A program made the translations under genes and the position numbers. This document shows positions 62-9,027 of a stretch of DNA of 64,000 bases, in pieces. The notes beneath the pieces were generated by a model, which saw only the letters and a list, made by a program, of their open reading frames with translations, had not been told where the DNA came from and made no database searches. The first letter of the stretch is position 1; each line of letters begins with the position of its first letter. Source of the stretch: Candidatus Thorarchaeota archaeon MP11T_1 (GTDB lineage Archaea; Asgardarchaeota; Thorarchaeia; Thorarchaeales; Thorarchaeaceae); assembly GCA_002825515.1 (NCBI GenBank), contig PJET01000003.1:1-64000 (forward strand), read 5' to 3'.

Positions 62-325
62 ATGCAGGTCTTTGATACAACCATTCCAATCTTAGCAATA
101 CTCCTTGGATCTGTTATCTCAAGCTTGGTCCTTGCATTGCCATTATATCGCTATAAAGGTAAGATTTCTGAGTCGTCAATCCTACTAAGATTAGCATTGT
201 TGATTCTATTGGCCTTTGGAGTAGGAACTACTGTGTTTGTTTCTTTTGTATTCCCAATCTATCTCATTTTTGCATTCATTTTTGTCCTACCATTCGCTGT
301 TTGCTTTATACTTAGAATTAGGTAA
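62..325 (+). CDS. Small integral membrane protein, function unknown
   Basis: This 87-residue protein is almost entirely hydrophobic. It has about three predicted membrane segments (roughly residues 8-29, 40-60 and 62-84) and a short polar stretch around residue 35. I do not recognise a family. The part from ESSI through FPIY matches ESSI...FYPIY in the protein at 1954-2355, so the two look like paralogues. The gene ends 11 bases before the 3' end of the convergent initiator tRNA gene. The start is the first ATG. The gene could begin upstream of the window in another frame, but nothing suggests it. Confidence 0.55.
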   Translation: MQVFDTTIPILAILLGSVISSLVLALPLYRYKGKISESSILLRLALLILLAFGVGTTVFVSFVFPIYLIFAFIFVLPFAVCFILRIR

Positions 326-336
326 GAAGAATAAAA

Positions 337-480
337 TGGTAGCGGGTAGTGGATTTTTTGGCGACCGATTGGAAGTCAAAGCGGCCGGAACCACTGATCT
401 CGGGGTAACCCCGACGACGGAACTCAAGCGTTTCCGCTCTTATGAGCCCCGCGGGATAGGCCTGGCTTCCCCAACCCGCT
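337..480 (-). tRNA. Initiator tRNA-Met(CAT) with two introns
   Basis: Read on the minus strand, the acceptor stem is AGCGGGT/ACCCGCT, with discriminator A and encoded CCA. The A1:T72 pair and the GC-rich anticodon stem CGGGG/CCCCG around loop CTCATAA mark an initiator tRNA. A 34-nt insertion sits at the canonical 37/38 site (about 407-440). A second insertion of about 31 nt (about 356-386) splits the T-loop: stem AGTGG, then TTC, intron, AAAT, then CCACT. Removing both gives a 79-nt tRNA including CCA. The T-loop intron contains a short GGCCG/CGGTC stem. The exact splice points are uncertain by a few bases because repeated A residues flank the site. Confidence 0.93.
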
Positions 481-577: not shown

Positions 578-1879
578 CTAATCGTAATTGAAGGAGGACC
601 AATGAGAGCTAGGTGTTTTTCCCCTTTTGCCTGTCCAGTATAAGATAATGCATGCTACAGCCACGAATAGGGCTCCACCTAGGACGAGAGCATTTGATTT
701 GATGAAACTTACTAGTGGATGTTCGATGACCATCACAGTAACAAAATCCCACACCATGAAACCAGCTTTGTCTTGAAGTATCAGGTGAAAAGTTCGATTC
801 CCTACCTCAAGGCCATCTACAGATATGGTGATAGAAGATCCATTCCAAAGACCCTTCCTCCTGTTGGTGTCTGGCCAAGTATAGGAGTGTTCATAGTCGA
901 CCACCCAGTATCTGTAGGGATAGTCATCAGTGCAGTTCCATACTATGGTGTTTCCAGTCTGTCCGATAATATATACAATGTCGGTTACAGATGTGAGTGA
1001 TGGCGGGGTTGTGTCTATATCCCCACCAACCTCATACTCCAAGTAGATGTCATGGACACGAAATGGAGGGAGTGGATTGTACTGAAACTCGCAGTGTCCT
1101 CCAAACATCAAGACAAGGTATCGGATATTTCGTGCAGTTTCAACCTCCTCTGCAGGTATGATTGTCCCATTCCGAGCGGGCATGGGGTCATATGCTGGAA
1201 TACTCCCATTCAATCCATGGGAAGGTACAAACCATGTTGACCAGGTTATGTTGACATATTCCATCCAATGTTGAGAGTATCCCAATTCATAATAAGAAGC
1301 ACTATCGTCGCCCAAAGCAAATCTGTGTATGTTTGGATGTCGAAGATAGTATTTCCATCTACAACCACCCTGCGGATCATACCGAAACCAATCATGTATG
1401 TCTGCTACTAGAACTGGGTCATATAATTCGTCAAAGAGACCCACATAGACTACACCATAATAGGCAGGATCAGTATTGTTAAGCTCCATGTGAACACTAA
1501 AGTTACGCAACCCAGAGAGAGGAAATGGTTCAGACAATGTATGGACATATGCTGGACCATAGTATCCAGAAACTGGTGAGGTGTTTGTGAAATCAGGCAT
1601 CGGGAAACTCTGTCCATCCGATTCTAGATCGACCGCGGTGTACACCCACTGAGATTCCCAGAACTCCATAGAAATCTCCTTGTATTCAAATCCAGATGTG
1701 TTCGAACAATCATGATGCCAAGTTTTGATTTCTGGTTCTTGAGCAGGGTAAGAGAAGGAACTTGGTTTAAATGTTGTATCATCGGAAGTGATTGGTTGAC
1801 TCAAGGGCAGACTCATTGAGCAAACTAGGATGAATAAAACGAGAATTGTCAATGTTTGGCTGCTTCTGATAGAAACCAA
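578..1879 (-). CDS. Membrane-anchored extracellular protein, function unknown
   Basis: This 433-residue protein has an N-terminal signal peptide (hydrophobic core about residues 9-27), a long polar region rich in aromatic residues and NxS/T sequons, and a C-terminal membrane helix (about 396-416) followed by a basic tail. That is the layout of a surface protein anchored at its C-terminus. The region around 295-385 could be a beta-sandwich domain. I recognise no enzyme motif. The start is a TTG only 12 bases after the remnant of a tRNA 5' end, so the leader and promoter appear to derive from the initiator tRNA gene. The gene lies between the two promoter copies. A shorter start at TTG codon 10 is possible. 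Confidence 0.75.
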   Translation of the reverse strand: MVSIRSSQTLTILVLFILVCSMSLPLSQPITSDDTTFKPSSFSYPAQEPEIKTWHHDCSNTSGFEYKEISMEFWESQWVYTAVDLESDGQSFPMPDFTNTSPVSGYYGPAYVHTLSEPFPLSGLRNFSVHMELNNTDPAYYGVVYVGLFDELYDPVLVADIHDWFRYDPQGGCRWKYYLRHPNIHRFALGDDSASYYELGYSQHWMEYVNITWSTWFVPSHGLNGSIPAYDPMPARNGTIIPAEEVETARNIRYLVLMFGGHCEFQYNPLPPFRVHDIYLEYEVGGDIDTTPPSLTSVTDIVYIIGQTGNTIVWNCTDDYPYRYWVVDYEHSYTWPDTNRRKGLWNGSSITISVDGLEVGNRTFHLILQDKAGFMVWDFVTVMVIEHPLVSFIKSNALVLGGALFVAVACIILYWTGKRGKTPSSHWSSFNYD

Positions 1880-1880
1880 C

Positions 1881-1949
1881 CCCCAACCCGCTATTGCTGG
1901 GCTGAAGACCGCTATGTGAGTTTTAAAGTTATTCGTAGAATCAGTAAGG
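1881..1949. repeat. Direct repeat copy 2: tRNA-iMet 5' remnant plus promoter
   Basis: The remnant keeps the first 12 bases of the initiator tRNA (minus strand, ending at 1892) and the TATA region ACTTTAAAACT. It lacks the rest of the tRNA. It lies immediately upstream of the TTG start of the surface-protein gene, so it could supply that gene's promoter. No integrase or transposase is present nearby. Confidence 0.8.
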
Positions 1950-8306: not shown

Positions 8307-8391
8307 CCTCTAGGCTCTAATTTACATTCTAGAGTCCAACCATTTCCTTTGTGTTGGCGGACACGTCCGCATGGGATGTGGCCCATAGAGG
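8307..8391 (+). ncRNA. Structured RNA element upstream of rpl15e (leader or small RNA)
   Basis: An outer helix, CCTCTA (8307-8312) with TAGAGG (8386-8391), encloses four potential hairpins: GGCTCTA/TAGAGTCC, CAAC/GTTG, GCGGA/TCCGC and ATGGG/CCCAT. A TATA-like CTTTAAG near 8284-8290 would start transcription at about the first base of this structure. It may be a long 5' leader of rpl15e or a separate small RNA, because another TATA-like AATATAG near 8410-8416 could give a leaderless rpl15e mRNA. No known RNA family is recognised. The orientation is inferred from the promoter position. Confidence 0.45.
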
Positions 8392-8442
8392 CTGAACCAC
8401 AAACAAAGCGAATATAGTTACAACAAAGGATGGGAATACATA

Positions 8443-9027
8443 ATGCCAACGGCATATCAACATATGAATGAAACTTGGTTAGAGGAACAGAAAAAGCGTT
8501 CTGAACTGATAAGAGGTAGGCTTATTGTCTGGAGAAAACAGGGCAATATCGTGAAGCTTGACCGACCTTCGCGTCTTGGGAGGGCACGGTCATTAGGCTA
8601 TAAAGCAAAACAGGGATACGTGGTGGTCCGAATTAAGACTGGTCGTGGTCCTCGCGAGAAACCAAGACCTCGAATGGGACGTAAGCCTAGAAGTTTAGGT
8701 GTCGTAAAGTACACACCACAAAAATCACGACGGTGGATTGCTGAGGAGCGTGCTGGAAGAAAATTCCCCAATCTTAGAGTCTTGAACTCATATTGGGTTG
8801 GATCAGACCATAAGTGGGTCTGGCATGAAGTCATCTTAGTAGACCCGAATCATCCAGTAATCTACAATGATCCAAATATCAACTGGATATGTGACCTTGT
8901 GCAGAAAGGCAGAGAGAACAGAGGCCTCACATCTGCAGGAAAAAGGAGTAGAGGTCTACGGAAAAAAGGACGAGGCGCTGAGAAGATGAGACCATCTCTT
9001 GGTGCCAAAGGCAATCTTGGCAAGTAA
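8443..9027 (+). CDS. rpl15e: 50S ribosomal protein L15e (eL15)
   Basis: Signature segments include DRPSRLGRARSLGYKAKQG (about residues 39-57), the arginine-rich GRKPRSLGVVKYTP, PNLRVLNSYWVG and EVILVDPNHP. The 194-residue length is normal. It is followed after 29 bases by the exosome-like RNA-binding gene and the RNase P genes, a common archaeal arrangement. Confidence 0.97.
   Translation: MPTAYQHMNETWLEEQKKRSELIRGRLIVWRKQGNIVKLDRPSRLGRARSLGYKAKQGYVVVRIKTGRGPREKPRPRMGRKPRSLGVVKYTPQKSRRWIAEERAGRKFPNLRVLNSYWVGSDHKWVWHEVILVDPNHPVIYNDPNINWICDLVQKGRENRGLTSAGKRSRGLRKKGRGAEKMRPSLGAKGNLGK

Follow-up and report, generated by a model that had tools for sequence, protein, structure and literature searches.

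How can a tRNA that no cell can spare be encoded by a gene that is broken twice, once inside the T-loop? The question is raised by a locus close to the start of a 64,000-nt stretch of the contig PJET01000003.1 of Candidatus Thorarchaeota archaeon MP11T_1, which is referred to below as the window. The extent 337..480 given in a preliminary description proved exact; the gene is read on the minus strand, from 480 to 337, as an initiator tRNA-Met(CAU) (iMet) gene with an encoded 3' CCA. The features of the locus are as follows.

337..480, minus strand: initiator tRNA-Met(CAU) gene, with A1 at 480 and the encoded CCA at 339-337
480..441, 406..388 and 356..337, minus strand: iMet exons, whose mature sequence is near-identical in 26 relatives
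407..440, minus strand: 34-nt canonical intron at 37/38 (CUCAUA^...^ACCCCG)
357..387, minus strand: 31-nt T-loop intron at 56/57, an interrupted hairpin with an ACUUC pentaloop
509..530, minus strand: promoter-like block GTCCTACGAATAACTTTAAAAC; ACGAATAACTTTAAAACT is also found upstream of iMet in G002, G004, G007 and G026
324..336, minus strand: T-rich tract directly 3' of the CCA, a possible terminator judging by its sequence
1881..1938, minus strand: partial second copy comprising the promoter block and the first 12 nt of iMet

The mature tRNA had been said to require removal of two insertions, and this was borne out. When both inserts were excised, the resulting 79-nt sequence was called by ARAGORN as tRNA-Met(cat) with correct ends, and the unspliced sequence returned 0 genes. 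Excision of the T-loop insert alone again gave tRNA-Met(cat) with correct ends plus the 34-nt intron, and excision of the 37/38 insert alone gave a tRNA call with wrong ends. The T-loop is split as described, between TTC and AAAT with AGTGG and CCACT on either side. Every arm of the cloverleaf is base-paired, from the acceptor through the D and anticodon stems to the T stem, and the exons lie collinear within 144 nt, which does not fit a permuted or split tRNA gene. The tRNA has the CAU anticodon, an A1-U72 pair and GGG/CCC at 29-31/39-41, the last of which is a mark of archaeal initiator tRNAs. The A1:U72 pair is mentioned in the part of PMC8450103 that was available. Sequence analysis confirmed 337..480 as an initiator tRNA-Met gene predicted to be interrupted by two introns, and we infer that it serves translation initiation. 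When run on the whole window, ARAGORN made a single call, a tRNA-Leu, and Rfam RF00005 at E values up to 1 likewise reported the tRNA-Leu alone. Both tools were blind to the initiator gene, so genomes of this kind may seem to be without an initiator tRNA.

The relatives examined were 38 genomes (those of L001-L038), labelled Thorarchaeota except for two Lokiarchaeota and two named plainly as archaeon. A 39-nt pattern recovered iMet in 10 of them, and a second pattern, applied to the remaining 28, matched in 20, of which 16 proved on reading to hold a true iMet; these 26 genes and that of the window form a set of 27. Each of the 26 relatives yielded one full iMet gene via a single pattern, so copies escaping that pattern would go unseen. 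After the spliced sequences had been cut out with our own template, the mature tRNA was near-identical across the window and the 26 relatives with the inserts variably present, which excludes chance as the origin of the match. The 17 distinct spliced sequences gave standard pairs in 357/357 pair cells, and covariation in the T-stem spans the position of the intron, four of the five T-stem pairs having changed on both sides. Full iMet genes were not found in 12 of the 38 genomes by six patterns, one BLAST query and one covariance model, the last scoring at most 150 candidates per genome.

Could the window gene nevertheless be a dead or decaying copy, with an intact initiator elsewhere doing the job? 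Incomplete copies do occur: the block at 1881-1938 matches 469-527 with 81% identity over 59 nt (E 6.6e-10), and 3'-half copies of iMet are present in the relatives G016, G018 and G031. However, the fragment at 1881 holds just 12 nt of the tRNA and is not a second intact initiator gene, whereas the gene at 337..480 has every stem intact, a mature form near-identical to those of relatives with one full iMet each, and a conserved promoter block. This block, in which the TATA-like CTTTAAAAC is separated from A1 by 28 nt, is promoter-like and is the putative iMet promoter. We consider a dead copy very unlikely. It is highly probable that 337..480 works as an initiator tRNA gene and that its two introns belong to the archaeal bulge-helix-bulge (BHB) type; its transcript would be cleaved and ligated as set out below.

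The introns themselves are distributed unevenly. The 37/38 intron, rightly described as canonical, is present in 17/27 iMet genes and absent in 10; a D-loop intron is found in 15/27, and a T-loop intron in 9/27, seven of these at 56/57 and two at about 59/60. All eight presence combinations of the three introns were seen: none in one gene (G002), D-loop alone in five, 37/38 alone in six, T-loop alone in two, 37/38 with T-loop in three (including the window), D-loop with 37/38 in six, D-loop with T-loop in two, and all three in two (G008 and G027). The nearest relative is Candidatus Thorarchaeota archaeon SMTZ1-45 (L001), whose L15e is 96% identical to that of the window (8443-9027) and which adjoins the window in a tree of L15e DNA with support 100/99; the iMet of this sister genome (G001) has an intron in the D-loop and none in the T-loop. 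On the same tree, which has 26 coded rows and omits G036 for want of a complete L15e, at least seven changes are needed to account for where T-loop introns are present, or at least five when the 56/57 class alone is counted. The pattern indicates that iMet introns are gained and lost quickly in Thorarchaeota, even between sister genomes. It also bears on an assembly error or chimera that would have placed unrelated sequence inside the gene, an explanation we regard as having a negligible chance of being right, since six relatives from separate assemblies also have their T-loop interrupted at 56/57, by introns with the same type of loop.

We propose the following route to the mature tRNA. The transcript would begin upstream of 480 and be trimmed at both ends; an archaeal splicing endonuclease would excise both introns, and ligation of the exons would yield the mature form of 79 nt. 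In the T-loop, the GCCA at the 3' end of the intron, which is followed by AA|A, can pair with exon U51-G52-G53-U54, so that the 5' strand of the T-stem and U54 would form a 4-bp central helix UGGU/GCCA (one pair being U-G) flanked by the bulges UC|C and AA|A. The interrupted hairpin capped by ACUUC would sit inside the intron. At 37/38, inspection by eye showed a 3' bulge UU|A and a central helix CUC/GGG of just 3 bp.

The pairing at 56/57 was scored over the 20 introns at this site in iMet and tRNA-Lys, taking the best of three offsets, and exon positions 51-54 and the intron 3' end gained 69/80 points, with 2.5 to 4 of 4 per intron. When T-stems were shuffled among genes the mean was 61.3 and 0/20,000 shuffles reached 69; with shuffled introns the mean was 45.1 and 0/5,000 reached it. 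The paired sequences themselves differ, from UGGU/GCCA in the window to UUGU/ACAA in G019 and GGGU/GCCC in Lys. Two intron bases (AA| or AG|) lie between the pairing and the 3' cut in 16/20 introns, as would be expected if a 3-nt bulge were cleaved 3' of its second base; no base is left in G019, G015 and G026, and one in G027.

By these features the T-loop insert resembles a BHB intron: its exon-intron central helix is 4 bp long, and removal of the insert restores a normal tRNA. The bulges UC|C and AA|A would also fit such a motif. No outer helix follows directly past the 3' bulge at 56/57, and the motif is relaxed in this respect. The lowest-energy fold of the window T-arm closes the T-stem and leaves the central helix unformed, and a closed T-stem was preferred in most of nine folded T-loop cases, G026 preferring the intron-paired form. 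Because the energy model mostly favours the closed T-stem, we regard the T-loop motif as a relaxed BHB. The closed stem could also mean that the insert stays in the mature tRNA as an expansion segment. Against this, a T-loop insert is absent from 18/27 iMet genes, that of the sister genome among them, and the covariation between the 3' end of the insert and the T-stem is what a splice motif should show. A retained T-loop insert would disrupt the contacts between T-loop and D-loop. Retention therefore appears most improbable, and excision of the insert is the reading followed here.

An endonuclease suited to relaxed motifs is predicted in the relatives. Two PF01974 paralogs were found in 19/20 related genomes searched, and G014 has just one. 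In alignments of G007 and G019 read by eye, the first paralog shares Tyr, His and Lys, which we take to be the catalytic residues, with 3p1z_B, and the second paralog is without the His. The relatives would accordingly have one catalytic and one non-catalytic paralog, the composition expected of a heterotetrameric (alpha-beta)2 splicing endonuclease, and the organism of the window presumably has the same enzyme. In other archaea, relaxed motifs and non-canonical sites accompany two-subunit endonucleases, according to the available parts of PMC4090602 and PMC6379350.

In three relatives (G001, G010 and G019) a single contig carries both iMet and the second paralog, about 130-150 kb apart. G014, a one-chromosome genome, is without an iMet in the searches made except for an iMet-like 3' end at 1501-1524 of L182. 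A split or permuted initiator using this 3' fragment was considered and set aside, an assembly gap being likelier: G014 has neither iMet nor the second paralog, which are linked elsewhere, and we infer that its assembly probably misses a stretch.

T-loop introns had been described as rare outside a few crenarchaeal orders, which does not hold for Thorarchaeota, where they extend beyond the initiator. A pattern built on the iMet T-loop intron gave 26 matches in 18 of the 38 related genomes against three for a reversed control pattern; in 42 other archaeal genomes it gave three matches in three genomes, and the control five. Fifteen of the 26 lie inside tRNA genes (6 iMet, 6 Lys-like, of which one is truncated where its contig stops, and three of other kinds), two that were read lie outside tRNA genes, and nine are known from the matched string alone. 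Since the pattern includes the loop, its matches do not test loop conservation. A loop-independent search with the 5' half of tRNA-Lys(CTT) found a match in 28/38 genomes. T-arm introns, with all T-arm sites counted, are present in 20/27 tRNA-Lys genes: 13 at 56/57, four at about 58/59 and three at 53/54. Isotypes were assigned by our reading of the anticodon; one tRNA-Lys (L294) was retained though its contig ends just past the T-loop intron, and five truncated or degenerate copies were left out (three in G006, one in G007, one in G009). Of these five copies (L291, L298 and L299 in G006 and G009, L292 in G007), four break near the T-arm.

The introns at several of these sites share a pentaloop. 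We refer to T56/57 (iMet and Lys), T58/59, the Lys variable region and Lys 30/31 as the favoured sites. When the best 5-nt loop was chosen by pairing alone, it read A-N-U-N-C in 32/43 introns at the favoured sites and in 2/47 at other sites, and shuffled introns gave a mean of 0.9 and a maximum of 4 in 300 rounds. Loops predicted by RNAfold matched R-N-U-N-C in 34/43 versus 1/47. The two groups were drawn after the loops had been seen and orthologous introns are not independent, so these contrasts carry no clean p-value. Among the favoured sites, Lys 30/31 reaches only 6/12 for A-N-U-N-C by the pairing-only rule. Elsewhere, the same rule gave 0/2 at iMet 59/60, 0/15 in the D-loop, 0/17 at iMet 37/38, 1/10 at Lys 37/38 and 1/3 at Lys 53/54, and a looser count (R-N-U-N-C with three flanking pairs) gave 3/15 in the D-loop and 2/10 at Lys 37/38. 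A-N-U-N-C is absent from the four tRNA-Val variable-region introns that were read (L132, L141, L142 and L143). In the window T-loop intron the pairing-only rule selects CCGCU and RNAfold selects ACUUC.

Why should such different introns share a loop? The main rival to constraint is recent copying of introns from site to site, the pentaloop being a mere mark of common descent. Copying of this kind is reported for Thermoproteales in the available part of PMC4090602; in our set, orthologous introns are non-independent and stems at the same site are partly similar among close genomes. On the other hand, over the 43 introns, loop columns 1, 3 and 5 carry 1.13, 1.40 and 1.37 bits and the closing R:Y pair about 0.8 bits, whereas the outer stem carries 0 to 0.5 bits. 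Informative loops on near-uninformative outer stems suggest that the loop has outlasted the stems. We give common descent a serious chance, somewhat short of even, and consider it more likely than not that the pentaloop is under constraint, with a role that may or may not lie in splicing. A bolder and rather doubtful proposal is that the non-canonical introns of Thorarchaeota form a class marked by R-[A-N-U-N-C]-Y, which the splicing machinery (for example the non-catalytic subunit) would read, so that relaxed BHBs in the T-loop, in the variable region and at 30/31 would be cut accurately, those of iMet included. Archaeal tRNA splicing is otherwise regarded as structure-directed; if functional, the shared pentaloop would add to it a sequence-specific signal. 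Two further candidates were dropped by eye: a GGAA/UUCC pseudoknot in long 37/38 introns, because the pairing registers vary between sequences, and a kissing interaction between the T-intron loop and D-arm GGAAG, because tRNA-Lys has no GGAAG.

tRNA genes with several introns have been described from other Asgards and from Thermoproteales, and the window gene is therefore of a known kind. In Atabeyarchaeia and Freyarchaeia, 92-95% of tRNA genes bear introns, often at non-canonical sites, and over half have more than one (PMC11291895). Like the window these are Asgard genomes with non-canonical introns, but they belong to other classes, and the available part of that source mentions neither a T-loop intron in an initiator nor any pairing of introns or loop motif. 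The tRNA-Pro of Pyrobaculum islandicum (Thermoproteales) has introns at 25/26, 37/38 and 56/57 (PMC4090602, available part), which places a 56/57 insertion alongside one at 37/38 as in the window, and in Crenarchaeota relaxed motifs likewise occur together with two-subunit endonucleases; it is, however, a crenarchaeal elongator tRNA. Initiators that need splicing for their assembly have been described in the accessible part of PMC3218864, namely a permuted iMet in Thermofilum pendens (59/60 and 37/38), also disrupted at the T-loop, and a split iMet in Nanoarchaeum equitans (37/38), whereas the window iMet is collinear with cis introns. Among the matches listed in the literature searched, including the available parts of PMC11291895 and PMC8813620, there was no description of tRNA introns in Thorarchaeota, and none that fitted, by title or abstract, a pentaloop conserved among the tRNA introns of archaea. 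For consensus features in introns at non-canonical sites there is some precedent in the clade-specific models for intron consensus of tRNAscan-SE 2.0 (Crenarchaeota/Euryarchaeota and Thaumarchaeota), as far as its available description goes. What is new is the pentaloop on diverged stems that T-loop introns of iMet and Lys and the Lys 30/31 and variable-region introns for the most part have in common, together with the pairing of the T-stem with the 3' end of the 56/57 intron.

An initiator tRNA is indispensable, yet in this Asgard group introns enter and leave its gene at three places, which puts splicing on the route to every protein. Presence and absence in sister genomes offer natural pairs for studying how a T-loop intron is gained and cut.

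The surroundings of the gene show traces of duplication. Along the minus strand, the promoter-like block with 12 nt of iMet (1881-1938) is followed by an ORF (1879..578, 433 aa, no Pfam match), then by another copy of the block and the complete iMet gene; the copied tRNA promoter may drive expression of the ORF. A gene matching window 2421 is the neighbour of the iMet promoter in both G004 and G008. The arrangement recalls the Caldiarchaeum tRNA-Thr locus, where intron gain via site-specific integration is described in the part of PMC3293823 available: both loci combine an insertion, a neighbouring 5' fragment of a tRNA and a whole tRNA that bears an intron. In Caldiarchaeum the tRNA has a putative recombinase gene next to it, whereas the ORF at 578-1879 is not a recognised recombinase. 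At 8357-8403 (plus strand) the window has an eL15-Euryarchaeota ribosomal leader (RF03144, 51.3 bits), which precedes L15e in this Asgard genome.

Copies of the iMet 3' half were also observed in relatives. By a loose match allowing up to 9 substitutions, G031 has 23 in one orientation, 0.6-3.2 kb apart, on contig C42 (L303+L304) and eight in one orientation, 1.5-11.5 kb apart, on contig C22 (L305+L306), and the copies separate gene-sized stretches. These arrays look like an attachment-site or cassette array on an iMet that has neither an anticodon-loop nor a T-loop intron. Degenerate 3'-half copies occur in L118 and L119 (G018 and G016), whose own iMet genes likewise have no intron in the anticodon loop or T-loop; in these two related genomes the copies fit, weakly, the idea that introns at those places block integration.
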